A DNA stretch of 64,000 nucleotides from the NCBI RefSeq assembly GCF_004004565.1, contig NZ_SACM01000005.1, forward strand, positions 124,001 to 188,000. The letters are read 5' to 3'. The stretch comes from Inhella crocodyli (GTDB lineage: Bacteria > Pseudomonadota > Gammaproteobacteria > Burkholderiales > Burkholderiaceae_C). The translations under genes were made by a program, and so were the position numbers. Positions within the stretch are counted from its first letter, which is position 1. Each line of letters starts with the position of its first letter. Of this stretch, positions 6,408 to 31,198 are shown piece after piece. The notes beneath the pieces were generated by a model. That model did no database searches, had not been told where the DNA came from, and saw only the letters and a program-made list of their open reading frames with translations.

Positions 6408-7172
6408 TTGATCCGGCACCTGCAAGCGCCGCCCGCATGGCGGCGCCTGGCCTTCGTGTCCGACCTTCATCTGGGGCCGGACACGCCGCGCACCCTGGCG
6501 ACTTTTGAGGCCTTGCTCGGGCGCTTGCAGGCCGACGCCCTGTTCGTCTTGGGCGACCTGTTCGAAGCCTGGGTGGGCGACGACGCCCTGGACCTGCCTT
6601 ACGCCCAGCGCGTGGCCCAGGCCCTGTCAAGCAGCGCCCAGCATCGGCCGCAGTACTTCATCGCTGGCAACCGCGATTTTTTGGCCGGCGAGGCCTTCGC
6701 TCAGGCCTGCGGCTTGCAGCGCGTGGACGAACTGCTGACCCTCGACGCCTGGGGCGAGCGCTACCTCGTGGCCCATGGTGACGCCCAGTGCCTGGACGAC
6801 ACCGCCTACCAGGCTTTCCGCACGCAAGTGCGCCAGGCCGCTTGGCAGCAAGCCTTTGCCCAACGACCGCTGGAAGAGCGCTTGGCGCAAGCCGCCCAGA
6901 TGCGCGATGCCAGCCGGGCGAGCCAAGCCCAACAAGCGCAACAGGGCCTGCCCTTCGCCGACCCCGACGCCGCGCATTGCCGCGGCCTCCTGCTCACGGC
7001 CGGCGCCCGCCTGTTCATCCACGGCCACACCCACCGTCCGGGTTGCTTTTCTTTGGGCGACGGCCTGGCCCGTCTGGTGTTGAGCGATTGGGACCTGGAT
7101 CACGGCAACGCCCCACGCGCCGAGTGCCTGTACCTCGGGCCCGAAGGCATCCAGCGCGAAGCCCTGGCGTGA
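6408..7172 (+). CDS. lpxH: UDP-2,3-diacylglucosamine diphosphatase
   Basis: Lipid A pathway enzyme that hydrolyses UDP-2,3-diacylglucosamine to lipid X and UMP at the inner membrane. The 254-residue calcineurin-like phosphoesterase carries the metal-site motifs SDLHLG, GDLFEAWVGDD, GNRD and HGHTH in order. The GDLFEAWVGDD and GNRDF forms mark true LpxH, in contrast to the PlcP-type paralogue at 11190-12032, which has GNHD. The start is TTG at 6408, which keeps the conserved N-terminus. The stop overlaps the GTG start of mtfA. Confidence 0.93.
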   Translation: MIRHLQAPPAWRRLAFVSDLHLGPDTPRTLATFEALLGRLQADALFVLGDLFEAWVGDDALDLPYAQRVAQALSSSAQHRPQYFIAGNRDFLAGEAFAQACGLQRVDELLTLDAWGERYLVAHGDAQCLDDTAYQAFRTQVRQAAWQQAFAQRPLEERLAQAAQMRDASRASQAQQAQQGLPFADPDAAHCRGLLLTAGARLFIHGHTHRPGCFSLGDGLARLVLSDWDLDHGNAPRAECLYLGPEGIQREALA

Positions 7173-11189: not shown

Positions 11190-12032
11190 TCAGGCGGAGG
11201 GCGCGGGCAAGGCCATGGGCAGCTTGGGCCGCACCGCCTGCGCCCAGCGCGCGGTCCAGTCGATGACCTCGAGCCGACCGTCCGGATGCTCGCCCAAGGC
11301 CGTGAGGCTCTCGACCCAATCGCCATCGTTGGCGTAGACGATGCCGTCGATGTCGCGCAGTTCGGCGTGGTGGATGTGGCCGCACACCACCCCGTCCAGG
11401 CCCCGCGCCTTCGCCTCGCGGGCCACGGCACGCTCGAAGTCGTCCACGTAAGCCAGGGCGCGCTTGACCTTGAGCTTGAGGTAGCGCGACAGGCTCCAGT
11501 ACGGCAGGCCCAGCCGGGCGCGCAAAGAGTTCAGGGCGTGGTTGGCTTCCAGCGCGCGGGTGTAGGCCCAGTCGCCCAGGTGGGCCAACCATTTGGCGAT
11601 CTGGATCACGCCATCGAAGTGATCGCCGTGCGTCACCCACAAGCGCCGACCGTCGGCCAAGGTGTGGATCACGTCGCCCAGCACCTCGATGCCGCCGAAG
11701 CTGGTGCCCAGGTACTTGCGGGCGAACTCGTCGTGGTTGCCCGGCACGAAGACCACGCGCGTGCCCTTGCGCACCTTGCGCAGGAGCTTTTGCACCACGT
11801 CGTTGTGCGCCTGTGGCCAGAACCATTGGCGTCGCAGTTGCCAGCCGTCGACGATGTCGCCCACCAAGTAGAGGGTGTCGCACTCCACGTGACGCAGGAA
11901 GTGCAGCAGGGCCTGGGCTTGGCAGCCGGGCGTGCCCAGGTGCAGGTCGCTGATCCAGACAGTCCGCAGGCGCAGGTCGCCGGGTTCGTCGTCGTGGCTG
12001 TCATGGCCGGGGGGCAAGGCATCTCGGTGCAT
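11190..12032 (-). CDS. plcP: PlcP-type metallophosphoesterase (phospholipase C family)
   Basis: Calcineurin-like phosphoesterase of 280 residues. Metal-site motifs in order are SDLHLG (28-33), GDIVD (58-62), GNHDE (98-102), THGDHFD (134-140) and GHIHHAE (218-224). The motifs QAHNDVVQKLLRK and GLPYWSLSRYLKLKVK match the family of Sinorhizobium PlcP, which cleaves phosphatidylcholine and phosphatidylethanolamine to diacylglycerol under phosphate starvation. Databases often call it UDP-diacylglucosamine hydrolase, but the true LpxH is at 6408. A near-consensus Pho box ends 24 bp before the start and overlaps the psd stop. The predicted transcript start is only about 2 bases before the ATG, so the mRNA may be leaderless. 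Confidence 0.85.
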   Translation of the reverse strand: MHRDALPPGHDSHDDEPGDLRLRTVWISDLHLGTPGCQAQALLHFLRHVECDTLYLVGDIVDGWQLRRQWFWPQAHNDVVQKLLRKVRKGTRVVFVPGNHDEFARKYLGTSFGGIEVLGDVIHTLADGRRLWVTHGDHFDGVIQIAKWLAHLGDWAYTRALEANHALNSLRARLGLPYWSLSRYLKLKVKRALAYVDDFERAVAREAKARGLDGVVCGHIHHAELRDIDGIVYANDGDWVESLTALGEHPDGRLEVIDWTARWAQAVRPKLPMALPAPSA

Positions 12033-12040
12033 GAGCCGCC

Positions 12041-12074
12041 ATGCTGCCCAGGGCTCACGACAGGCCGATGACAG
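12041..12074 (-). promoter_or_regulatory. Pho box and -10 of plcP
   Basis: Read on the minus strand, CTGTCATCGGCCTGTCGT (12074-12057) matches 13 of 14 defined positions of the PhoB half-site pair CTGTCAT-n4-CTGTCAT. Ten bases later comes CAGCAT (12046-12041), with A2, A5 and T6 of a -10 element. The same geometry occurs at five other promoters in the window. The box covers the last codons of psd. Confidence 0.85.
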
Positions 12075-12957
12075 GGCCGCGTCGCAACAAGGCCTGGCCC
12101 ATGCGCAGGCGCTCGCCGGTGCGCACCACAGGGGCCAAGCCGGGCGGCACCAAGATCACCAGCGTGGAGCCGTGCTCGAACCAGCCCATCTCCTGTCCTC
12201 GCGTCAGCTCGGCGTGGCAGCGGGTGTCGCGCGGACCGCGCCAGCGCAGGTGCATCAGCACGTCCAAGCAGTGCAAGCGGATGCTGGCCACCAAGATCGC
12301 GGCCACCGGCACGATGAGCAGGGGCTGGCCATCGTGCAAACGCAAACGCAGCACCGCGCGTTCGTTGCGACAGAACAGGCGCTCGACCCGCTTCAGGGCG
12401 ATGGGGTTGACGTTCCAGGTGTCCCCGCTGAGGTAGCGCACGTCGGTCACGGTGGCGTCGTCGGGCGCGTGGAAGCGGTGGTACATCGCCGAGGTCAGGC
12501 GCAGGGTCAGGTACTGGCCGCCCTCGAAGGCAGCGGCGTCCTCGGCGCTGCCGAGCAAGTCGGCCAAGGGATAGGGCATGCCCTTGGCCTGCAGCACCGT
12601 GCCGGCCTGCACGGTGCCCAACGCGCCGACGATGGCGTCGCAAGGGCTGACCAGCACGGCGGGGTCCGGGTCGACCGGCCGGGCGCCAGGCACCAATTCG
12701 CGCGTGAAGCAGGCGTGCAGGCTGTCAAAACGCTGCAACCGGGCGTCGCGCAGGTCCAACTCGGTGAACTGGCGCCACACCCAGATGCTCAGGCGCGCCA
12801 GCCAGGGCGAGCGGATCTTGCTGAACCAGCCCATGAAGCGGGTGAGCGCGATGCGCGGCACCCGGTTCGTGAGCAGGAAGTTGAGGTCTTCGTTGAGCAG
12901 CAGGCGGTCGCGCCAACGGGTTTTGGGGGATTCGGGGGCGTGGGCAAAGGGATTCAT
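12055..12957 (-). CDS. psd: phosphatidylserine decarboxylase (Psd)
   Basis: Pyruvoyl enzyme that makes phosphatidylethanolamine from phosphatidylserine at the inner membrane. The 300-residue E. coli-type protein has the catalytic Asp in SPCDAIVG (107), the two histidines of MYHRFHAP (160, 163) and the self-cleavage site HGSTLVILVP (GST at 263-265). It ends 22 bp before plcP on the same strand, so the gene making PE sits next to the gene expected to degrade it. The ATG at 12957 is preferred because the frame beyond it is not family-like. A PhoB-like sequence overlaps this start codon but lacks a matching -10. Confidence 0.9.
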   Translation of the reverse strand: MNPFAHAPESPKTRWRDRLLLNEDLNFLLTNRVPRIALTRFMGWFSKIRSPWLARLSIWVWRQFTELDLRDARLQRFDSLHACFTRELVPGARPVDPDPAVLVSPCDAIVGALGTVQAGTVLQAKGMPYPLADLLGSAEDAAAFEGGQYLTLRLTSAMYHRFHAPDDATVTDVRYLSGDTWNVNPIALKRVERLFCRNERAVLRLRLHDGQPLLIVPVAAILVASIRLHCLDVLMHLRWRGPRDTRCHAELTRGQEMGWFEHGSTLVILVPPGLAPVVRTGERLRMGQALLRRGPVIGLS

Positions 12958-13021
12958 GACCGTGTCAAGACAGGGACGTACACCCCTGGGCACCGACGAA
13001 CTCGACGCCCAAGGAACTCAA

Positions 13022-14665
13022 ATGACGGAATGGATGACGCTCGCCGCGGCCGGCGCCGGCCTGGCCCTGCTGCCCCGCGCGGTGCGGCGCCTGCAGCTCT
13101 CGGTGGCCAAGCACCCGAGCCTGGGGGGGCACAGCAAGATGGCCCTGCGCCTGGCGCGCTGGCTGCCCGGCTACGCCTTCGACGAGGCCCAGTTCTACGG
13201 CGCCGACGGGGCCGATGCCGCGTTGCAGCAGCGCCGCCGCGCCGGCCTGCAGCGCCTGGCCCACACGCTGAACACGCGCCACGCGCGCACCCTGGCGGCC
13301 ACGCGCGAGGCCCGGGAGGGCCTGAGCGACCTGCAGCTCACCGGCGCCTACCGCGTGCCCTTCCCCTTCAGCAAGACCCTGCGCGGCCTGCTGGGTGTCG
13401 GCGCCTTTGTGCAACGCACCGAAGGCGCTTGGCTGGTGGACCTGGACGACCAGCGCCTGCTGGACCTCACGGGCAGTTACGGCGTCAACGTGCTGGGCCA
13501 CGCCTTCTACCAACGCTGCATGGCCGAAGCCCAGCGCCGCGCGCTGCCGCTGGGCGTCAGCCTGGGCACCTACCCCGAGGCCCTGCTCGACGTGCTGGCG
13601 CGGCTGCGCCGCATCTCGGGCCAGGACGAGGTGAGCTTTCACATGTCGGGCACCGAGGCCGTGATGCAGGCCGTGCGCCTGGCCCGCTACCACACGGGCC
13701 GGCGCAAGGTGGTCCGCTTCTGCGGCGCGTACCACGGCTGGTGGGGCGACGTGCAGCCCGGTCCCGGCAACCCCATGCCGGCCGACCACACGTACACCTT
13801 GGAGGACCTGAGCCCCCGCGCGCTGCACGTGCTGCGCACGCGCCAGGACATCGCTTGCGTGCTGGTCAACCCTTTGCAGGTGCTGCACCCCAACAAGGCC
13901 GCCCCGGGCGACAGCGGCCTGATGGGCGCCCGCGCCCTGCCCGCCGTCGACGCCGAGGCCTACGCCGCCTGGCTGCGCCAGCTGCGCGCGGTGTGCACCG
14001 AGCGCGGCATCGCCCTGGTCTTTGACGAGGTGTTCATGGGCTTCCGCCTCGCCCCCGGGGGCGCGCAAGAGCGCTTTGGCGTGCAGGCCGACTTGGTGAC
14101 CTACGGCAAGACCCTGGGGGGCGGCTTCCCCCTGGGCGTGCTCTGCGGCCGGGCCCGCTGGATGAAGCGCTTCCGCGACGACCGGCCTGCCGACCTGTGC
14201 TTCGCCCGTGGCACCTTCAACGCCCACCCCCACGTGGTGATGGGCGTGCAGGTCTTCTTGGAACAGTTGGAAACGGCTGAGGTGCAGGCCCTGTACGCCG
14301 GCCAAGAGGCGCGCTGGGACGCCCGCGCTGCGCGCTTGAACGCAAGGCTGGCCGAAGGCGGCTGGCCGGTGCAGGTGTCGCACTGGAGTTCGGTGTGGAG
14401 CGTGGCCTACACGCAGCCGGGTCGCTACCACTGGTTGCTGCAGTTCTATTTGCGGGAGCAAGGGCTGACCTTGTCGTGGGTGGGCACGGGTCGCATGGTG
14501 TTCACGCTGGATTTCAGCGACGCCGACTTCGACGCCGTGTGCCAGCGCTTCGCGGCCGCCTGCGAACGGATGCAGGCCGACGGCTGGTGGGAGGCCGCGC
14601 CCAGCCCGAAGGCCTTGAAGCGCATGCTGCTGCGCGAAACCTGGCGCGCTTGGCGCCAGCGTTGA
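13022..14665 (+). CDS. class-III PLP aminotransferase with N-terminal extension (glutamate-1-semialdehyde aminomutase-like)
   Basis: A 547-residue fold-type I PLP enzyme. The catalytic core starts near residue 125. It shows SGTEAVMQAVRLAR (phosphate site, 209-222), GAYHGWWGD, DEVFMGFR (335-342) and the PLP lysine K363 in TYGKTLGGGFPLG. The first 120 residues are not part of HemL-type enzymes and begin with a hydrophobic stretch (LAAAGAGLALLP) suggesting membrane association. It is divergent from psd/plcP and convergent with the DUF962-like gene. It is probably not the haem-pathway enzyme. Its place in a lipid island suggests transamination of a lipid headgroup precursor, but the substrate is unknown. 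No clear Pho box was found in front of it. Confidence 0.8.
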   Translation: MTEWMTLAAAGAGLALLPRAVRRLQLSVAKHPSLGGHSKMALRLARWLPGYAFDEAQFYGADGADAALQQRRRAGLQRLAHTLNTRHARTLAATREAREGLSDLQLTGAYRVPFPFSKTLRGLLGVGAFVQRTEGAWLVDLDDQRLLDLTGSYGVNVLGHAFYQRCMAEAQRRALPLGVSLGTYPEALLDVLARLRRISGQDEVSFHMSGTEAVMQAVRLARYHTGRRKVVRFCGAYHGWWGDVQPGPGNPMPADHTYTLEDLSPRALHVLRTRQDIACVLVNPLQVLHPNKAAPGDSGLMGARALPAVDAEAYAAWLRQLRAVCTERGIALVFDEVFMGFRLAPGGAQERFGVQADLVTYGKTLGGGFPLGVLCGRARWMKRFRDDRPADLCFARGTFNAHPHVVMGVQVFLEQLETAEVQALYAGQEARWDARAARLNARLAEGGWPVQVSHWSSVWSVAYTQPGRYHWLLQFYLREQGLTLSWVGTGRMVFTLDFSDADFDAVCQRFAAACERMQADGWWEAAPSPKALKRMLLRETWRAWRQR

Positions 14666-14670
14666 CGGCC

Positions 14671-14695
14671 TCGCCCCGGGCTGGGCCCGGGGCGA
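14671..14695. terminator. bidirectional hairpin between the aminotransferase and DUF962-like genes
   Basis: An 11-bp perfect stem, TCGCCCCGGGC/GCCCGGGGCGA, with loop TGG lies between convergent genes, six bases after the aminotransferase stop. There is no T run. Confidence 0.65.
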
Positions 14696-14718
14696 ATCAC
14701 AAGCCCTGATCGTTGGGC

Positions 14719-15327
14719 TCAGTGCGCCTGGGCGTGGTGCATCGGGTCGATCAACTCGCCGCGCAGCAGGTGCAGCGGGGCGCGCCAGTACAGCATCACG
14801 TCGTGGAAAGGGTCGGTCAGGATCTTGCTGGCCCACACCAAGCCGGTGGACACATCGGCCAAGAAGAACAGGTGCACCGTGCGGAACACCAAACCGCCGA
14901 CCCCAAGCGCGAACCAGGCCATGCCCACGTCGTGCGCGTACTCGGTCAGGTTCGCGGCGGGCTGGATCAGGCCGCGCAGCGAAGGGTCCACCCACAGCCA
15001 CAGCGGCAGCGCCACCCACAGGGCCATCAGCACCACCTTGCGACGCAGGTTGTAGCCCACCTTGATCGCTTCCTTGTGCTCGTGCGTCGCTTGGTTGACG
15101 TGGTCGTAGCCCTTGGGCTCGAAGAAAAAGTGGCCGGCTTGGCGCGAGGTCATCGACACGCACCAAGCCAGCAGCGCGGCCCAGGCCGGGTCGACCGGCA
15201 GCAGGCCGTAGGCCACGATGAAGCTCAGCGCGCTCAGCAGGTGCAGGCTTTGGTTGATGCGGCTGTGGTGGTAATAGCGGTGGTCGTCCCAGCGCTGCGT
15301 GCGCAGCGCGTCCATGAATGCAGTCAC
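14719..15327 (-). CDS. DUF962/Mpo1-like multi-pass membrane protein
   Basis: A 202-residue protein with about four hydrophobic segments. Conserved polar residues include YYHHSRINQSLHLLS near the N-terminus and RQAGHFFFEPKGYDHVN about 45 residues later, followed by HEHKEAIKVGYNLRRKV. The H...N..H and R..GHffE spacing resembles the DUF962/Mpo1 family, whose yeast member is an iron-dependent dioxygenase acting on 2-hydroxy fatty acids. This is a resemblance only. GTG at 15327 is chosen because AGGAG lies 6 bases upstream; the first ATG is at 15315. A Pho-box promoter lies upstream, divergent from that of the glycosyltransferase. Confidence 0.7.
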   Translation of the reverse strand: MTAFMDALRTQRWDDHRYYHHSRINQSLHLLSALSFIVAYGLLPVDPAWAALLAWCVSMTSRQAGHFFFEPKGYDHVNQATHEHKEAIKVGYNLRRKVVLMALWVALPLWLWVDPSLRGLIQPAANLTEYAHDVGMAWFALGVGGLVFRTVHLFFLADVSTGLVWASKILTDPFHDVMLYWRAPLHLLRGELIDPMHHAQAH

Positions 15328-15358
15328 CCGGGGCTCCTGACAAGGTTGCGGAGCCGTG

Positions 15359-15392
15359 ATGCTGTCGCTGGCGCGTGAAGCGCCGATGACGG
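15359..15392 (-). promoter_or_regulatory. Pho box and -10 of the DUF962-like gene
   Basis: On the minus strand, CCGTCATCGGCGCTTCAC (15392-15375) has half sites 11 bp apart, the second weaker (TTCAC). Ten bases later comes CAGCAT (15364-15359). The predicted transcript starts near 15352, about 25 bases before the GTG start with its AGGAG site. Confidence 0.7.
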
Positions 15393-15416
15393 TTCCATGC
15401 CAATGCCACGACGGGG

Positions 15417-15450
15417 CCGTCATCAAGCCGTCGCACGGCCCACGCAGCAT
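15417..15450 (+). promoter_or_regulatory. Pho box and -10 of the agt-like gene
   Basis: CCGTCATCAAGCCGTCGC (15417-15434) is followed by a 10-bp spacer and CAGCAT (15445-15450). It is back to back with the Pho promoter of the divergent DUF962-like gene; the two boxes are 24 bp apart. The predicted transcript start, near 15457, almost coincides with the ATG at 15459. Confidence 0.78.
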
Positions 15451-15458
15451 CGCGGCCC

Positions 15459-16670
15459 ATGCACAGCACCGACATCGCCATCGAGTCCAGCGCCCGCCGC
15501 TGGTTGCGCATCGCCGTCGTCACCGAGACCTACCCCCCCGAGGTCAACGGCGTGGCCGGCACCATCGCCCGCGTGGTGGAGGGACTGCGCGAACGCGGGC
15601 ACGAGTTGCAACTCATCCGACCCCGCCAGGGCCCGGACGACGTCGCCCGCGTGCAAGAAGGCTTTGCCGAGATGCTGATGCGCGGCCTGCCGATCCCCCG
15701 CTACCCCGAACTGAAGATGGGCCTGCCGGCCAAGCGCGCGCTGGTGCGGCGCTGGAGCTTCGAGCGGCCCGACGTCGTGCACCTGGCCACCGAAGGGCCG
15801 CTGGGCTGGTCGGCCCTGCAGGCGGCACGCCACCTGCGCCTGCCGGTGGTCAGCGAGTTCCGCACCAATTTCCACGCCTACAGCCAGCACTACGGCGTGG
15901 GCTGGCTGCGCCACCCCATCCTGGCCTACCTGCGCAAGTTCCACAACCAATGCCAGCGCACCCTGGCCCCGGCGCCCGACCTGCGCGACCAACTCACCGA
16001 CCAAGGCTTCCAGCGCGTGTTCGCCAGCGCCCGCGGCGTGGACACCCAGCGCTTCCGACCCGAGCGGCGCAGCACGGCGCTGCGCCGGCAATGGGGCGCC
16101 GACGAAGGCGCACCGGTGCTGATCTGCGTCGGGCGCTTGGCGGCCGAGAAGAACCTGGGCACGGCCGTGGACGCCTTCGAGGCCCTGCGGCAGGTCGAGC
16201 CCCGCGCCAAGCTCGTGTTCGTGGGTGACGGGCCCGAGCGCGAACGCCTGCAAGCGCGCTGCCCCGATGCGGTCTTCGCCGGCTTGCGACGCGGCGACGA
16301 CCTGGCGGCGCATTACGCCAGCGCCGATCTGTTCGTGTTTCCCAGCCTGACCGAGACCTTCGGCAACGTCGTGCCCGAGGCCATGGCCTGCGGCCTGCCG
16401 GTCGTGGCCTACCACTACGCCGCCGCGGCCGTGCTGTTGCAAGACCACCGCGCCGGGGCCCTGGCCCCCATGGGCGACGCCGAGGCCTTCGTGCGCGCCG
16501 TGGTCGACCTGGGCCGCCTGCCCACCGCCCTGAGGGCCTTGGGCCGGGAAGCGCACGCCGTGGCCCGCACCCTGGGCTGGGACCGCATCGTGGCCGAGGT
16601 GGAAGGGCACCACCGTGCCGCCATGGCCGACCTGGCGCCCGACCTGCCGGCCGCGCTGCACCTCGCCTGA
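15459..16670 (+). CDS. agt: GT4 glycosyltransferase of the Agt/SQD2/MgtA type (probable lipid glycosyltransferase)
   Basis: A 403-residue GT-B enzyme. The N-terminal domain opens RIAVVTETYPPEVNGVAGTI, the signature of the SQD2/MgtA/Agt group that glycosylates diacylglycerol or similar lipids. The C-terminal domain has GRLAAEKN and the EX7E motif ETFGNVVPE (residues 299-307) that binds the nucleotide sugar. Agt with PlcP replaces phospholipids by glucosyl or glucuronosyl diacylglycerol in phosphate-starved bacteria. The Pho box upstream and the pst operon 0.8 kb downstream support that role here. A start nearer RIAVV (TTG at 15504) is possible, since the predicted mRNA begins within about 2 bases of the ATG. 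Confidence 0.82.
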   Translation: MHSTDIAIESSARRWLRIAVVTETYPPEVNGVAGTIARVVEGLRERGHELQLIRPRQGPDDVARVQEGFAEMLMRGLPIPRYPELKMGLPAKRALVRRWSFERPDVVHLATEGPLGWSALQAARHLRLPVVSEFRTNFHAYSQHYGVGWLRHPILAYLRKFHNQCQRTLAPAPDLRDQLTDQGFQRVFASARGVDTQRFRPERRSTALRRQWGADEGAPVLICVGRLAAEKNLGTAVDAFEALRQVEPRAKLVFVGDGPERERLQARCPDAVFAGLRRGDDLAAHYASADLFVFPSLTETFGNVVPEAMACGLPVVAYHYAAAAVLLQDHRAGALAPMGDAEAFVRAVVDLGRLPTALRALGREAHAVARTLGWDRIVAEVEGHHRAAMADLAPDLPAALHLA

Positions 16671-16696
16671 GGCCTGAGGCCGCCGCCCTGCGCGGC

Positions 16697-16730
16697 GCGT
16701 CACGCCCCTGTCACGGGCGGGGCGCACCAT
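16697..16730 (+). promoter_or_regulatory. Pho box and -10 of the pseudo-response-regulator gene
   Basis: GCGTCACGCCCCTGTCAC (16697-16714), a 10-bp spacer, then CACCAT (16725-16730). Both half sites contain GTCAC with an 11-bp period. Confidence 0.78.
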
Positions 16731-16770
16731 CCCGGTCCATCCCGGCTTCCAGCCTCCGCGCTTGCCCTCC

Positions 16771-17424
16771 GTGTCCGCCCTCTCCACCGTTCCGCCCACC
16801 CTGCTGGTCGCCTGCCCGGCCCACCCGGCGCTCGACCACTGGGTGGGCGTGGCCCGGGCCCACGGCGTGGTGGTGGCGCGCACGCAGGACCCCGAGCAGG
16901 CCCGCCGCTGGCTGGCCGTGCTGCAGCCCGACGTGGTGTTGGCCGAGCCGCCGTGCCTGGCCGCGCTGCAGCAGGCGCCCCTGGCCCCGAGTTGCCTGTC
17001 CGTGCCCTGGGAGGGCGAAGTCAGCCCCCTGCGCCACGCGCTGGCCCGCTGGATTCCCGAGTTGGCCGAGCCCATGCCCTTGCTGCGCGTGGGGGCACTG
17101 TGCATCGACGAGGCGCGGCAATTGGTCGGCCGGGCGCTGGACGGCGGTCGCCTGATCCAGGCCTCCCTGCCGCCGGTGGAACTGCGCCTGCTGCTGTGCC
17201 TGGCCCGCCAGCCAGGGCGGCTGATCACCCGCCAAGAACTGCAAGAGCGCGTGTGGCCGCACGAAGCACAGCCCCAGGCCCGCACCGTGGACCAGGTGGT
17301 GCGCCGCCTGCGCAAGGTGCTGGCCACCGTCGGCCTGGCCGAGGCCGTGCGGGCCCAGCGCGGTCTGGGCTACCAGTTCGACGCCCGCGCCACCCACGAC
17401 CACCCCATCCCCGCCGGACTTTGA
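16771..17424 (+). CDS. OmpR/PhoB-type winged-helix regulator with a degenerate receiver domain
   Basis: A protein of about 217 residues. The C-terminal half is a clear PhoB/OmpR DNA-binding domain (LPPVELRLLLCLARQPGRLITRQELQERVW, then TVDQVVRRLRKVL and RAQRGLGYQFD). The N-terminal 100 residues resemble a receiver only faintly. The acidic pair is missing (LLVACPAH), the phospho-acceptor position reads PDVVLAE instead of PDLVLLD, and the KP pair is absent. It is therefore unlikely to be phosphorylated. It sits between agt and pstS with a Pho box of its own, so it is probably induced by PhoB and tunes the same regulon. No partner kinase is adjacent. GTG at 16771 is chosen; TTG at 16762 is an alternative. 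Confidence 0.78.
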   Translation: MSALSTVPPTLLVACPAHPALDHWVGVARAHGVVVARTQDPEQARRWLAVLQPDVVLAEPPCLAALQQAPLAPSCLSVPWEGEVSPLRHALARWIPELAEPMPLLRVGALCIDEARQLVGRALDGGRLIQASLPPVELRLLLCLARQPGRLITRQELQERVWPHEAQPQARTVDQVVRRLRKVLATVGLAEAVRAQRGLGYQFDARATHDHPIPAGL

Positions 17425-17437
17425 GGGCACCCTGACG

Positions 17438-17471
17438 GCGTCACAAAGCCGTCACGAAGCAGGCCTAGAGT
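17438..17471 (+). promoter_or_regulatory. Pho box and -10 of the pst operon
   Basis: GCGTCACAAAGCCGTCAC (17438-17455), a 10-bp spacer, then TAGAGT (17466-17471). This is the best-supported PhoB site in the window, because pstS is the classical target. It calibrates the other five boxes. Confidence 0.88.
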
Positions 17472-17524: not shown

Positions 17525-18508
17525 ATGCTCAAGATTGCCCAGACCGTTGCCCTGATCGGCCTGACCGCCGCCCTGGGCGCCCACGCCCAAGTCGTCAAGA
17601 TCGACGGCTCCTCCACCGTGTTCCCCATCACCGAAGGCGTGGCCGAGGACTTCCAGAAGGCCAAGAAGGGCTCGGTCAAGGTCACCGTGGGCATCTCGGG
17701 CACGGGTGGCGGCTTCAAGAAGTTCTGCCGCGGCGAAACCGACATCAGCAACGCCTCGCGCCCCATCCAGAAAAAGGAAATGGACGACTGCAAGGCTGCC
17801 GGCATCGAGTACTACGAGCTGCCCATCGCCTTCGACGCGCTGACCGTTGTCATCAACCCGAAGAACAGCTTCCTGAAGCAGATCACCGTCGCCGAGCTCA
17901 AGGCCATCTGGGAGCCTGCCGCCCAGGGCAAGATCACCCGTTGGAAGCAGGTCAACCCGGCCTGGCCCGACGCGCCGATCAAGCTCTTCGGCGCCGGCGC
18001 CGACAGCGGCACCTTCGACTACTTCACCGAAGCCGTCAATGGCAAGGCCAAGGCCAGCCGCGGTGACTTCACCGCCTCGGAAGACGACAACGTGCTGGTG
18101 CAGGGCATCAGCAGCGACGTCAACGCCATCGGCTACTTCGGCTACGCCTACTACGCCGAGAACCAAGCCAAGCTCAAGGCGCTGCCGATCGTAAACCCCA
18201 AGGGTCAGGCCGTGAGCCCTAGCGAAGCCACCGTGCTCAACGGCAGCTACGAGCCCCTGAGCCGCCCGATCTTCATCTACGTGAACGCCAAGTCGATCGC
18301 CAAGCCGGAAGTCAAGGAGTTCGTCGAGTACATGCTCAAGAACGCGGCCAAGATCTCCAAGGAAGTGAAGTACGTGCCGCTGCCGGCCAAGGCCTACACC
18401 CTGGGCCAAGAGCACCTGAACAAGGGCAAGAAGGGCACCGTCTTCGGCGGCAAGAACGAAGTCGGCATCACCATCGAGGAACTGATGGCCCGCGAGGCCT
18501 CCCTGTAA
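17525..18508 (+). CDS. pstS: phosphate ABC transporter substrate-binding protein
   Basis: Periplasmic phosphate receptor of the high-affinity Pst system. The 327-residue precursor has a signal peptide (cleavage likely after GAHA, near residue 21). The phosphate-loop motifs are [32 protein letters not shown] and [10 protein letters not shown]. This is the 320-350-residue SphX/PstS variant with the C-terminal YVEYMLKNA-type segment. It is the first gene of pstSCAB-phoU-phoB-phoR, directly behind a Pho box. A stable hairpin after its stop may raise PstS levels over the downstream proteins. Confidence 0.96.
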
Positions 18509-21430: not shown

Positions 21431-22135
21431 ATGAGCGACAAACACCTTTCGACCCAGTTCGACACCGAGCTGAGCGCCATCTCCACCCGTGTCTTGGAAA
21501 TGGGCGGTTTGGTGGAGCAGCAAGTGGCCGCCGCCGTCGAGGCCCTGGGCAACTTCAGCGAAGCCATGGCCACGCAGGTCCTCAAGACCGAAGAGCGCGT
21601 CAACCAGATCGAGCTCGAAATCGACCGCGAGCTCTCGGGCATCATCGCCCGCCGCCAGCCCACGGCGCGCGACCTGCGCCTGCTGATCGGGGTGTCGAAA
21701 ACCATCGGTAACCTGGAACGCGTCGGCGACGAAGCCGCCCGCATCGCGCGCATCACGCACCGACTCATCAGCAACGGCACCCACGGCCGCCTGTTCCCCA
21801 CGACGCAAATGGGCTCCGAGGCCACCCTGGCCAACGCCTCGCTGCGCCGTGCGCTCGACGCCTTTGCCCGCTTGGACGTGAACCTGGCGATGCAGGTCAT
21901 CAAGCAGGACAACGAGATCGACGCCGAGTTCGACGGCCTGATGCGCAAACTGGTCACCTACATGATGGAAGACCCCCGCACCATCAGCGCCTCCATCGAC
22001 CTGGTGTTCGTCGCCAAGTCCTTGGAGCGCGTGGGCGACCACGCCAAGAACCTGGCCGAGCAGGTGATCTACATCGTCAAAGGCGCCGACGTGCGGCACA
22101 CGCCGCCCGAAGGCCTGGAGTCGGCCGTCAGCTGA
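21431..22135 (+). CDS. phoU: phosphate signalling regulator PhoU
   Basis: PhoU links the Pst transporter state to the PhoR kinase and represses the Pho regulon when phosphate is plentiful. The 234-residue all-helical protein has two PhoU repeats, with the family's E/D-rich metal-binding motifs seen in RVGDEAARIARI and its second-half equivalent RVGDHAKNLAEQVIY. An AGGAG site lies upstream. phoB follows after 44 bp. Confidence 0.96.
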   Translation: MSDKHLSTQFDTELSAISTRVLEMGGLVEQQVAAAVEALGNFSEAMATQVLKTEERVNQIELEIDRELSGIIARRQPTARDLRLLIGVSKTIGNLERVGDEAARIARITHRLISNGTHGRLFPTTQMGSEATLANASLRRALDAFARLDVNLAMQVIKQDNEIDAEFDGLMRKLVTYMMEDPRTISASIDLVFVAKSLERVGDHAKNLAEQVIYIVKGADVRHTPPEGLESAVS

Positions 22136-22179
22136 TGCCCCGGCCCCGGCAAGGGGCCCTTCCAACGAAAGCAAACACC

Positions 22180-22872
22180 ATGGGACGCGTCCTCGTCGTG
22201 GAAGACGAGCTGGCGATAGCGGAGCTCATTGCCCTGCACCTTCGCCATGAGGGGCACCAGCCCCGCATGGCCGCCAGCGCAGCGGAGGCCTTGGCCGCCG
22301 TGACCGAACAACTGCCGGACCTCGTGATCCTGGACTGGATGCTGCCCGGCGACCCGGGCACCACCCTGCTGCAACGCTGGCGGCAGGACCCGCGCACCAA
22401 GACCCTGCCGGTCATCATGCTCACGGCCCGGGTGCAGGAGAGCGACAAGATTCGCGGGCTGGACGCCGGGGCCGACGACTACCTGACCAAACCTTTCTCG
22501 CCGGGTGAGTTGATGGCCCGCGTGCGCGCCCTGCTGCGGCGGCGCGCGCCCGAAGCCCTGGAAGCCGCTTTGCAAATCGGGCCGCTGCGCCTGGACCCGG
22601 CGGCACGCCGTGTCTACCACCTGGAGACCGAGCTGCACTTGGGCCCGACCGAGTTCCGCCTGCTGCGCTTCATGATGAGCCACCCCGAGCGCGTGCACAC
22701 CCGCGCCCAGTTGCTGGACAAGGTCTGGGGCGATCACGTGTTCATCGAAGAACGCACGGTGGACGTGCACATCAAGCGCTTGCGCGACGCCCTGTCGCCG
22801 GCCGGCTGCGCCGAGCTGATCGAAACCGTCCGCGGCTCTGGCTATCGCCTGAGCCAATCGCAAGCCGGCTGA
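22180..22872 (+). CDS. phoB: phosphate regulon response regulator PhoB
   Basis: Transcription factor that binds the Pho boxes described here once phosphorylated by PhoR. The 230-residue protein has an intact receiver: acidic pair in VVEDE, phospho-acceptor Asp in LVILDWMLPG, and the KPF lysine. Its winged-helix domain carries GPTEFRLLRFMM and RTVDVHIKRLRDAL. ATG at 22180 gives the usual N-terminus. It differs from the degenerate paralogue at 16771, which lacks all receiver residues. Confidence 0.96.
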   Translation: MGRVLVVEDELAIAELIALHLRHEGHQPRMAASAAEALAAVTEQLPDLVILDWMLPGDPGTTLLQRWRQDPRTKTLPVIMLTARVQESDKIRGLDAGADDYLTKPFSPGELMARVRALLRRRAPEALEAALQIGPLRLDPAARRVYHLETELHLGPTEFRLLRFMMSHPERVHTRAQLLDKVWGDHVFIEERTVDVHIKRLRDALSPAGCAELIETVRGSGYRLSQSQAG

Positions 22873-22877
22873 GCCCC

Positions 22878-24116
22878 ATGGAATGGCTCGGTTGGAGCGT
22901 GGCTTTGGCGGCCGGCGCGGGCAGCGCCTGGGCGCTCGAGCGCTGGCGCTTGCATCGCCTGCTGCGCTGGGTGGGGCGCGACCCAGCCTCGCCAGCGCCG
23001 GCCCTGCACGGTGCGCACGGCGAGCTGGCCTACCGCATCGAGAAGGCGCTGCGCGTGCGCGAGTCGCGCGCCCAGCGCGAGCGGCAACGGCGCGAACAGT
23101 TCCTGCAAGCCCTGGAGGCCTACCCCAACGGCCTGGTGCTGCTGGACGCCGAGGACCAGATCCAATGGCTCAACCCGGTGGCGGGCGAGCACCTGGGCCT
23201 GGACCTGCGCCGCGACCTGCAACAGAACGTCCGCAACCTGGTGCGCGCGCCCGCCTTTGTCGAACTGCTGGCGCGACCCGACCGCGAGGGCCAAGCCTTG
23301 ATCGCCTTGCACCAAGGCGAACTCAAGCTGGCGGTGTCGCTGCGCCGTTATGGCGACGACGGCCGGGGCGCGATGAGCCTGCTCGTGTCGCGCGACGTCA
23401 CGGAATCGGCCCGCATGGAACGCATGCGGCGCGACTTCGTGGCCAACGTCTCGCACGAGATCCGCAGCCCACTGACGGTGCTCAGCGGCTTCCTAGAGAG
23501 CTTGCAGCAGTTGCCCCTGGATCCCGACGAACAACGGCACATCCATGGCCTGATGCAGCAGCAGACACAGCGCATGCAAGCCCTGGTGACCGACTTGCTG
23601 ACCTTGGCCCAGCTGGAGGGCAGCCCACTGCCGGTCGCTGAAACCCGGTTCGCCCTGCGCCCCTTGTTGGAACGGCTTCTGGCCGACGCAAGGGCACTGG
23701 ACGAAGGGCGGCACCCCATCGAGGCCGAGGGCTTGGACGAGGCCGAAGGCTGGCAGATGGCCGGGCCCGAAGGCGAGTGGCACAGCGCCTTCGGCAACCT
23801 CGTCTCCAACGCGCTGCGCTACACGCCCCCCGGCGGCCGCGTGCGCCTGCAGTGGCGTGCGCTGGCACAAGGCGGCGGCGAGTTCGCCGTCCACGACGAG
23901 GGCGTGGGCATCGCGGCCGAGCACCTGCCGCGGTTGACCGAGCGCTTCTACCGCGTGGATGCCAGCCGCTCCCGCGGCACCGGTGGCACCGGCCTGGGCC
24001 TGGCCATCGTCAAGCACGTGCTGCAGCGCCACGGGGCCGAGTTGGACATCCAGTCGCAACCCGGTGTGGGCAGCCGATTTGCCATCCGCGTGCCCGCCAG
24101 TCAGCTTCAACGCTGA
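22878..24116 (+). CDS. phoR: phosphate regulon sensor histidine kinase PhoR
   Basis: A 412-residue inner-membrane kinase/phosphatase of PhoB. It has a short hydrophobic N-terminus, a PAS-like region near residues 85-170 (PNGLVLLDAEDQIQWLNP), the H-box VSHEIRSPLTVLSGF with the phospho-accepting His, and the ATP-binding N, G1 and G2 boxes (NLVSNALRY, DEGVGI, GTGLGLAIVKHV). It starts 5 bp after phoB and ends the operon at a strong hairpin. Confidence 0.96.
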   Translation: MEWLGWSVALAAGAGSAWALERWRLHRLLRWVGRDPASPAPALHGAHGELAYRIEKALRVRESRAQRERQRREQFLQALEAYPNGLVLLDAEDQIQWLNPVAGEHLGLDLRRDLQQNVRNLVRAPAFVELLARPDREGQALIALHQGELKLAVSLRRYGDDGRGAMSLLVSRDVTESARMERMRRDFVANVSHEIRSPLTVLSGFLESLQQLPLDPDEQRHIHGLMQQQTQRMQALVTDLLTLAQLEGSPLPVAETRFALRPLLERLLADARALDEGRHPIEAEGLDEAEGWQMAGPEGEWHSAFGNLVSNALRYTPPGGRVRLQWRALAQGGGEFAVHDEGVGIAAEHLPRLTERFYRVDASRSRGTGGTGLGLAIVKHVLQRHGAELDIQSQPGVGSRFAIRVPASQLQR

Positions 24117-29753: not shown

Positions 29754-31121
29754 TCAGGCGCGCAGGCGCTCGGGCGCCGCGGCCAGCAGGGATGGCGCCG
29801 TGCCGCGGCCGATGCCCACGTGCTCGAAACCCAGCGCCCGCACCGTGGCCGGGTCGTAGAGGTTGCGACCGTCGTAAACGATGGGCTGCGCCATCGCGGC
29901 CCGCAATCGCTCGAAGTCCGGGCTGCGGAATTCGCGCCACTCGGTGACCACGAGGAGGGCATCCGCCCCACGCGCGGCGGCGTACGGGTCGGGCGCGTAC
30001 TGCAAGCCGCTCAGGTCGGGCCAGCGGGCGGCCGCGCTGGCCATGGCGATCGGGTCGTAGCCCGCCACCTCGGCGCCGCGGGCCAGCAGCTCTTCGATCA
30101 GCACGCGGCTCGGCGCTTCGCGCACGTCGTCGGTTCCCGGCTTGAAGGCCAAGCCCCACACGGCAAAGCGCCGGCCGCGCAAGTCCGGGCCGAAGCGCTG
30201 CACCACGCGCGCCGCCAACAGCTGGCGTTGCCGGTCGTTGACGGCCAGCGTGGCGTCCAGCAACTGGGAGCCCACGCCATGGGTGTGGCCCAGGTGGGCC
30301 AGGGCCTTGACGTCCTTGGGGAAACACGAGCCGCCCCACCCGCAGCCCGCGTACAGAAAGTGCGTGCCAATGCGCGGGTCGCTGCCCACGCCCTGGCGCA
30401 CCTGCTCGACGTCGGCACCGACCGCGTCGGCGAGCAGCGCCATTTCGTTCATGAAACTGATGCGCAGGGCCAGCATGGCGTTGGCGGCGTACTTGGTCAG
30501 CTCGGCGCTGCGCGCGTCCATGGTCAAGAGGCGATCGCGGTTGCGCAGGAAAGGCGCGTACAGCGAGCGCAGCATGTACATCGCACGGTCGTCGTCGGCG
30601 CCCACGATCACGCGGTCGGGCGACATGAAGTCGTCGACGGCAGCGCCCTCCTTCAGAAACTCCGGGTTGGACACCACCGAGAAGGGCAGCACCGCCGCCC
30701 GCTGGTGCAACTCGCTGGCGATGACACCGCGCACCCGCTCGGCCGAGCCCACGGGCACCGTGCTCTTGTTGACCACCACCTTGTAATCGTTCATGTACCG
30801 GCCGATGCTGCTCGCGGCCGCCAACACGTGGCGCAGGTCGGCCGAGCCGTCTTCCGCCGACGGCGTGCCCACGGCGATGAACACGATGGAGCCGTGCGCC
30901 ACGGCGGCGGCGGCATCGGTGTCGAAGCGCAAGCGGCCGGCGGCCAGGTTGCGCGCCACCAAGTCGGCCAGGCCCGGCTCGTGGATGGGCATCTCGGCCC
31001 GCTGCAAGCCGGCGACGCGGGCCTCGTCCACGTCCAGACCGACCACGCTGTTGCCCATTTCCGCCAAGCAGGCGGCGGTGACGAGGCCCACATAGCCTGC
31101 GCCGATCACGGTGATCTTCAT
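29754..31121 (-). CDS. ugd: UDP-glucose 6-dehydrogenase
   Basis: Oxidises UDP-glucose to UDP-glucuronate. The 455-residue protein has the NAD site ITVIGAGYVGLVTAACLAE, the catalytic cysteine in GWGGSCFPKD and the C-terminal UDP-binding domain. ATG at 31121 has GGAG 6 bases upstream; the frame beyond it is not family-like. A Pho box with three half sites and the same spacer and -10 as plcP and pstS lies directly upstream. It therefore probably supplies UDP-glucuronate when phosphate is scarce, for example for glucuronosyl diacylglycerol made by the agt product. Capsule or LPS use is the alternative. Confidence 0.95.
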   Translation of the reverse strand: MKITVIGAGYVGLVTAACLAEMGNSVVGLDVDEARVAGLQRAEMPIHEPGLADLVARNLAAGRLRFDTDAAAAVAHGSIVFIAVGTPSAEDGSADLRHVLAAASSIGRYMNDYKVVVNKSTVPVGSAERVRGVIASELHQRAAVLPFSVVSNPEFLKEGAAVDDFMSPDRVIVGADDDRAMYMLRSLYAPFLRNRDRLLTMDARSAELTKYAANAMLALRISFMNEMALLADAVGADVEQVRQGVGSDPRIGTHFLYAGCGWGGSCFPKDVKALAHLGHTHGVGSQLLDATLAVNDRQRQLLAARVVQRFGPDLRGRRFAVWGLAFKPGTDDVREAPSRVLIEELLARGAEVAGYDPIAMASAAARWPDLSGLQYAPDPYAAARGADALLVVTEWREFRSPDFERLRAAMAQPIVYDGRNLYDPATVRALGFEHVGIGRGTAPSLLAAAPERLRA

Positions 31122-31153: not shown

Positions 31154-31198
31154 ATGGTGCAAAGCGGCCGTGACGCCGCCATGACGCCACCGTGAAGC
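31154..31198 (-). promoter_or_regulatory. Pho box (three half sites) and -10 of ugd
   Basis: On the minus strand the half sites GCTTCAC (31198-31192), GCGTCAT (31187-31181) and GCGTCAC (31176-31170) repeat every 11 bp. A 10-bp spacer and CACCAT (31159-31154) follow. The predicted transcript starts near 31147, about 26 bases before the ATG. Box, spacer and -10 match the promoter at 16697-16730 almost exactly. Confidence 0.8.

Follow-up and report, generated by a model that had tools for sequence, protein, structure and literature searches.

What are a phosphatidylserine decarboxylase (PSD), a class III aminotransferase (AT) and an Mpo1-like membrane protein (MP) doing among genes that carry the promoters of phosphate starvation? 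The question is raised by a 64,000-nucleotide stretch of the Inhella crocodyli genome (contig NZ_SACM01000005.1, positions 124,001 to 188,000; hereafter the window), which comes from an assembly of 3.76 Mb in 17 contigs. We consider that this island is probably a PhoB-controlled membrane-remodelling locus of the PlcP-Agt type, to which a lipid branch of three enzymes, PSD, AT and MP, has been added. The case is built on family-level gene identities, conserved linkage, co-occurrence with PlcP or with a fusion protein that ends in a glycosyltransferase (GT), and Pho promoter architecture. The genes of the island, and those used to identify the pst-pho cluster next door, are the following:

11190-12032, minus strand: plcP, PlcP-type calcineurin-like phosphoesterase, predicted phospholipase C (PF00149, 47.6 bits)
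12055-12957, minus strand: psd, second phosphatidylserine decarboxylase of the genome (PF02666, 191.8 bits; TIGR00163, 147.5 bits, cut-off 111.75)
13022-14665, plus strand: AT, class III pyridoxal phosphate (PLP) aminotransferase with a hydrophobic N-terminal helix (PF00202, 121.3 bits)
14719-15327, minus strand: MP, Mpo1/DUF962-like membrane protein with a GTG start (PF06127, remote)
15459-16670, plus strand: GT, GT4 glycosyltransferase of Agt type, diacylglycerol glycosylation predicted (PF13692, PF00534, PF13439)
16762-17424, plus strand: REG, winged-helix (PhoB-like) DNA-binding domain (PF00486 only)
17525-18508, plus strand: pstS, first gene of the pst-pho cluster (TIGR02136, 318.8 bits, above cut-off)
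22135-22872, plus strand: phoB (TIGR02154, 325.7 bits, above cut-off)
22878-24116, plus strand: phoR (TIGR02966, 373.3 bits, above cut-off)

The most conserved part of the island is PSD-AT-MP, usually with GT. Relatives of MP in public species-representative genomes gave at least 534 stretches, and the best 80 were examined (the named loci), hence a bias to close relatives; two other sets hold 40 family/order loci and 20 more distant loci. The trio stands together in 72 of the 80 named, 39 of the 40 family/order and 17 of the 20 distant loci. Only one family/order locus, L069, is without the full trio, and there MP is lacking. Several of the absent genes fall off short contigs, but not all, as L150 has room and yet no PSD. 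GT joins the trio in 75/80 named and 36/40 family/order loci. The sequence-only reading of this DNA had proposed a PhoB-controlled island of PlcP, GT, MP and a degenerate regulator; it had overlooked PSD and AT, and with them two members of the most conserved part.

In terms of spread, AT orthologues are present in 38 of 150 genomes of the family, our own included, with 56-69% identity when that genome is set apart. MP was found in 23 of 200 genomes of the order and in 25 of 398 of the phylum. The closest MP among the best 80 of at least 534 stretches belongs to an Inhella metagenome-assembled genome (MAG), at 90% identity. The distances between members of the module correlate (rho 0.60-0.76, without control for species phylogeny), which fits what co-inheritance would give. 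The module is also seen in MAGs labelled Verrucomicrobia, where MP is 75% identical among these MAGs versus 63-66% to the betaproteobacteria compared. A binning error is possible for these labels, though the records have several sources. Separately, an MP relative (Blr4581-like, 52-53% identical) is carried by Bradyrhizobium plasmids, namely pNK6a (L224, 9001-9639) and seven more; on pNK6a it has transposases around it, and the annotation shows neither PSD nor AT within 9 kb.

For the promoters, each Pho box was scored by its matches to the 14 consensus positions of CTGTCATNNNNCTGTCAT, the consensus as printed in PMC8528852, with C also allowed as the last base of either half site. We call full geometry a box of at least 10/14 with an nAnnAT hexamer at +10. 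The boxes in the window are:

12057-12074, minus strand: Pho box of plcP; shares bases with the 3' end of psd (13/14, CAGCAT at +10)
12951-12968, plus strand: weak Pho-like box of AT; shares bases with the psd start codon (9/14, TACACC at +10; layout spans 12951-12984)
15375-15392, minus strand: Pho box of MP (10/14, CAGCAT at +10)
15417-15434, plus strand: Pho box of GT (11/14, CAGCAT at +10)
16697-16714, plus strand: Pho box of REG (12/14, CACCAT at +10)
17438-17455, plus strand: Pho box of pstS (11/14, TAGAGT at +10)
31170-31187, minus strand: Pho box of a nucleotide-sugar dehydrogenase gene outside the island, from the whole-window scan (10/14, CACCAT at +10)

The five boxes that the sequence-only reading had placed before plcP, MP, GT, REG and pstS are all there, with 10-13 of 14 consensus positions. 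Their common geometry also holds, with a spacer of 10 bp in 5/5 and a strict nAnnAT in 4/5, the hexamer before pstS being TAGAGT. Because the plcP box reaches into the end of psd and the AT box into its start codon, the control regions and this gene are interlocked.

Full geometry occurs at 5 sites in the 64 kb versus 0.50 expected from 20 first-order Markov sequences; four of them are in the island and the fifth lies before the dehydrogenase gene. The box alone, at 10/14 or better, is found 61 times versus 100.5 expected, which is no enrichment, so the signal is the complete geometry. Across the genome the pattern CNGTCAYNNNNCNGTCRY has 3 matches, two of them being the plcP and GT boxes. Since the reversed control pattern gives 4, the bare consensus has little power genome-wide.

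Counts in relatives include the window and are given per row, or with identical upstream regions merged (“distinct”), where near-identical strains may still count twice; controls are random stretches from the same loci. Full geometry precedes MP in 74/139 rows (73/138 distinct; control 1.6%), GT in 86/126 rows (86/125 distinct; control 1.4%) and PlcP in 27/47, rows and distinct alike (control 1.9%). This means Pho promoters in 53-69% of loci, with controls below 2%. For AT the strict nAnnAT is seen in just 4/135 rows (control 1.4%). The typical layout before this gene is a box ending in CTGTCAA, then 10 bp, then TAnAnn. With TAnAnn also accepted, AT reaches 59/134 (58/134 distinct) at a box of at least 10/14, with a control of 1.4%; these figures are post hoc, because the TAnAnn class was picked after inspecting the sites.

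A second line of evidence is the co-occurrence with PlcP, for which we give Fisher P values computed without correction for phylogeny. In the family sample, PlcP is present in all 38 AT-bearing genomes versus 67 of 112 without AT (P 1.0e-7). In the phylum sample, where absence of PlcP means no match at E 1e-40, it is present in 18/25 MP carriers versus 130/373 others (P 2.9e-4). The idea of a PhoB-controlled PlcP-Agt-type island with extra components is thus favoured by this co-occurrence and by the promoters kept before MP, GT and PlcP; the earlier list of its components was the part that fell short.

Loci L210-L216 come from the seven MP carriers that have no PlcP. In six of these loci AT, PSD and MP are accompanied by an open frame of about 890-960 residues, and in the seventh carrier (G593) the contig stops inside GT. 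Within the six, the frame sits between AT and PSD in an operon-like run. The fusion frames are located as follows, with further ones in L212 and L216:

L210, 7377-10070, minus strand: fusion frame
L213, 10611-13484, minus strand: fusion frame
L214, 3674-6352, plus strand: fusion frame
L215, 2344-5022, plus strand: fusion frame

The C-terminal part of the fusion is a GT4 glycosyltransferase in 4/4 scanned. For the N-terminal half there is no convincing Pfam family in the same number scanned. One of two scanned has a weak NCBIfam match to CehA/McbA metallohydrolases (E 0.0052), and metal-binding-like motifs can be read in the frame of L215. Judged from these motifs and this match, the N-terminal domain is probably a metallohydrolase. 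Its assignment as a PHP domain, suggested by the motifs of one sequence, was dropped, as none of four scanned had a significant Pfam match. The domain is present in 7 of the 398 phylum genomes, namely the six PlcP-less MP carriers and G469, in which MP was not found. It is seen in none of the 18 PlcP-bearing MP carriers. Most simply, the fusion would take the place of PlcP and GT, with the corresponding activities predicted for it.

We now turn to the identity of each gene. The profile matches support a PlcP-type phosphoesterase, a GT4 glycosyltransferase and a regulator without recognisable receiver, as had been read from the letters, and the pst-pho cluster next door is confirmed by pstS, phoB and phoR above their TIGR cut-offs. 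PlcP scores far below both LpxH models (45.3 bits, cut-off 134; 36.1 bits, cut-off 190.35), and a separate lpxH-type gene, at 6408-7172, reaches the cut-off of the first with 214.4 bits but not that of the second (175.3 bits). On pSymB of Sinorhizobium meliloti, a protein that carries the annotation “UDP-2,3-diacylglucosamine diphosphatase” shares 56% identity with PlcP over 85%. On these scores we take PlcP for a predicted PlcP-family phosphoesterase distinct from LpxH. Best NCBIfam matches of GT are all under cut-off, lipid-glycosylating models among them.

PSD passes both family models, and its C-terminal part has a GST motif in 84 and GSS in 1 of 85 full-length relatives, which we take to be the self-cleavage site. 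Family membership is therefore well founded by profile and motif, and phosphatidylserine is the predicted substrate. The source genome has two PSD genes, the other copy lying elsewhere with 31% identity over the aligned part.

AT belongs to the class III PLP aminotransferases by PF00202 above cut-off, by K363 and D335, both invariant in 93 sequences, and by its fold. The AlphaFold model (predicted local distance difference test, pLDDT, 84) has a helix at 2-29, which by eye looks like a membrane anchor. The best PDB match is 6kfm, the AMT domain of mycosubtilin synthase (E 7.8e-29), and the closest solved relatives are this domain, glutamate-1-semialdehyde aminomutases and beta-transaminases. 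AT shares with 6kfm and the aminomutases the class III fold and the invariant lysine and aspartate. It differs in being a stand-alone gene, in its N-terminal hydrophobic helix and in a conserved LSxAKHxSLxGH segment, and HemL models are far below cut-off. A role as glutamate-1-semialdehyde aminomutase was rejected, TIGR00713 giving 166.8 bits versus a cut-off of 527.3.

For MP, the name “DUF962-like” given earlier holds as a remote match: PF06127 is found in 20/20 diverse relatives at E up to 10 (best 8.7e-6). For the window protein taken by itself the match is below the Pfam cut-off, as will be weighed below. No Pfam model matches this protein at E 1e-3. Its structure model is mostly helical (pLDDT 86).

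Putting these genes together, we infer the action of PhoB, the activity of each enzyme, the order of steps and the product as follows. At low phosphate, PhoB would bind the Pho boxes, in place of a -35 element, and activate plcP, GT and MP, and in many relatives AT too. PlcP would split phospholipids to diacylglycerol, a UDP-glucose dehydrogenase would provide UDP-glucuronate, and GT would glycosylate the diacylglycerol. PSD, AT and MP would form an additional branch of the remodelling and work jointly at the membrane; MP would serve as an Fe(II)-type oxygenase, AT would introduce an amine and PSD would act as a pyruvoyl decarboxylase. The trio may thereby make or convert a nitrogen-bearing lipid.

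The dehydrogenase of this scheme has a candidate 14 kb from the island, with its Pho box about 50 bp before the gene:

29754-31121, minus strand: nucleotide-sugar dehydrogenase, probably UDP-glucose 6-dehydrogenase, predicted UDP-glucuronate supply (TIGR03026, 435.3 bits, above cut-off)

Its best named model is UDP-glucose 6-dehydrogenase TuaD, with 460 bits and below the cut-off of 700. This enzyme could feed UDP-glucuronate to GT. The nucleotide-sugar dehydrogenase family adjoins the module in 21 of 132 loci, and a Pho site was found for it in 5 of 22 loci, window included.

Another recurrent neighbour is a methyltransferase, found next to MP in seven loci of alphaproteobacterial type (L203-L209), a class inferred from named Sphingomonas and Bradyrhizobium matches, and in Sphingomonas parapaucimobilis (L223, 8351-9624), where its gene overlaps MP by 4 bp. 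In the one scanned, it is PmtA-like, with NF045882 as best match below its cut-off.

The boldest version of the product is a phosphorus-free lipid of ethanolamine or choline type, because MP resembles an oxygenase family, AT amine-transferring enzymes and PSD pyruvoyl decarboxylases, and because alphaproteobacteria add a phospholipid-methyltransferase-like gene. In this tentative and rather doubtful proposal, a phosphorus-free mimic of phosphatidylethanolamine or phosphatidylcholine would be built from glycosyl-diacylglycerol. GT would add a sugar, perhaps glucuronic acid, MP would cleave or oxidise it, AT would aminate the carbonyl, PSD would remove the carboxyl and, in alphaproteobacteria, PmtA would methylate the amine. 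Where PlcP is missing, the metallohydrolase-GT fusion would both cleave the phospholipid and glycosylate the product.

Several observations weigh against a remodelling locus with an added branch. PlcP lies inside the fetched stretch in only 31/80 named and 17/40 family/order loci, and no GT is seen beside the trio in L207-L209 and in Sphingomonas L223. PSD is without a Pho box of this geometry (3/134 rows, 3/133 distinct, control 1.7%). The geometry is absent in the Verrucomicrobia-labelled loci tested (MP 0/9, GT 0/8 and, with TAnAnn allowed, AT 0/8), and distant loci seldom show nAnnAT (MP 2/20, GT 0/13); in both groups the Pho boxes, or the control, may differ. The window MP stays under the PF06127 cut-off (E 0.0027, 18.3 bits, cut-off 24), and its model found nothing in the PDB at E 0.001 or better. 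Finally, an acyltransferase of the ornithine-lipid type (PF13444) is present in 132 of the 150 family genomes, our own included. Being near universal, it means that a nitrogen-bearing phosphorus-free lipid may already be available, and its presence neither backs nor excludes the amine-lipid proposal.

The best surviving alternative, possible but in our view improbable, is that the lipid tails are altered. MP would oxidise 2-hydroxy acyl chains as yeast Mpo1 does, AT would aminate a keto-acyl chain, and PSD would merely supply phosphatidylethanolamine. The AMT domain, nearest solved fold to AT, acts on keto-acyl chains, which fits. So does the relation of MP to PF06127, as PMC9624242 terms Mpo1 an Fe(II)-dependent dioxygenase of fatty acid metabolism. 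What MP has in common with Mpo1 (DUF962/PF06127) is a remote sequence relation; its partners differ, and the window protein is below the family threshold. Among the recurrent neighbour families, read by eye and without a systematic search, the trio is accompanied by neither an acyl carrier nor a ketosynthase gene, and the PSD and PmtA-like partners point to headgroups.

An unlikely alternative is phosphate salvage. Here PSD would still make phosphatidylethanolamine, AT would be a PLP phospho-lyase whose substrate is the ethanolamine headgroup or the phosphoethanolamine released by PlcP, MP would handle the aldehyde or lipid product, and the trio would free phosphate. The class III fold does include ethanolamine-phosphate phospho-lyases, the presence of PlcP in every AT-bearing family genome agrees with it, and the methyltransferase beside MP fits a phosphatidylethanolamine setting. 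Against this stand the nearest solved relatives of AT given above, and an anchor in the membrane would hardly suit a substrate as soluble as phosphoethanolamine.

Quite unlikely is a plain PlcP-Agt remodelling system in which the trio is an unrelated phospholipid-maintenance unit, neighbour merely as membrane genes, with PSD restoring phosphatidylethanolamine after starvation: PSD without Pho box and the frequently unlinked PlcP would suit it, but the Pho promoter on MP and in many loci on AT, the 38/38 co-occurrence with PlcP and the GT-ended fusion between AT and PSD in six loci do not.

We therefore retain the PhoB-controlled locus with a three-enzyme branch and compare it with its wider surroundings. 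A pst-pho cluster of the window kind (PstS of at least 300 bits) together with REG is found, besides the window, in L056, L057, L123 and L126, i.e. 4 of 120 loci (L056-L095, L123-L202). REG of these four relatives is 40-68% identical to that of the window. It has only Trans_reg_C in the Pfam scan, with no Response_reg match, and gives 59 bits over residues 96-207 to TIGR02154, under cut-off, so the N-terminal receiver of a PhoB-type response regulator is not recognisable in it. REG could tune the Pho response. Genes of the PstC or PhoU families (in L086, L218 and L222, of the PstC, PstB or PhoU families) are near the module in L086, L087, L218 and L222, beyond the close kin of the window, which is a further hint of a phosphate link. 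An LplT-type lysophospholipid transporter is present in 55/132 loci, above its NCBIfam cut-off for the one scanned.

As for other lipid genes, plcP and a PF13444 match are no more than about 1 kb apart in at least 40 of 105 PlcP-bearing family genomes by eye count (e.g. G073:C1:2045166-2046733 and G002:C4:84810-86290). This spacing suggests plcP-olsB pairs, and some of these genomes also have the trio. BtaA (PF11899) has no match in our genome and is found in 1/150 family genomes. The betaine-lipid pathway (BtaAB) was rejected for the source genome on this ground.

PlcP-Agt remodelling under Pho control is established, according to PMC8528852, PMC9239053 and PMC4796936. The systems described there, in Pseudomonas aeruginosa, Methylosinus, SAR11 and Agrobacterium, share with the island a PlcP-type phosphoesterase, a GT4 glycosyltransferase and Pho boxes before glycosyltransferase genes. 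The island differs in that GT is paired with PSD, AT and MP, and its lipid exchange is a prediction. Section 13 of PMC4796936 describes six plcP neighbourhood types, and PSD, AT and MP are not named among them. The word “decarboxylase” is absent from the main text of that paper, and both “aminotransferase” and “decarboxylase” from the main text of PMC9239053. With the plcP-btaBA neighbourhood (type 1 in the same section of PMC4796936) the island would share the route from PlcP-derived diacylglycerol to a nitrogen-bearing phosphorus-free lipid, and it differs in lacking a BtaA-type match.

The PSD/PmtA pathway to phosphatidylethanolamine and phosphatidylcholine has in common the PSD family and, in the alphaproteobacterial-type loci, the PmtA-like methyltransferase; what sets the island apart is that its PSD is the second copy of the genome and is linked to AT and MP, in a setting of phosphate starvation. 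We found no paper in which plcP is connected with PSD, with a class III aminotransferase or with DUF962/Mpo1, which is a weak negative, as subscription papers and bioRxiv preprints are poorly covered. Within the same coverage, the addition of PSD-AT-MP and the fusion were not met either.

Bacteria are known to meet phosphate scarcity with, among others, glycolipids, betaine lipids and ornithine-type lipids. Our results suggest that the trio is one more such response, and we found no description of a class III aminotransferase or an Mpo1-like protein in roles of this kind. The trio is tied to Pho promoters in many Burkholderiales, and the candidate stretches with MP relatives, at least 534, extend over several proteobacterial classes and Verrucomicrobia-labelled MAGs. 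Should the fusion do the work of both PlcP and Agt, it would offer a further entry into the same pathway. For the organisms that carry it, the trio thus raises the question of which lipid vanishes without AT, PSD or MP.

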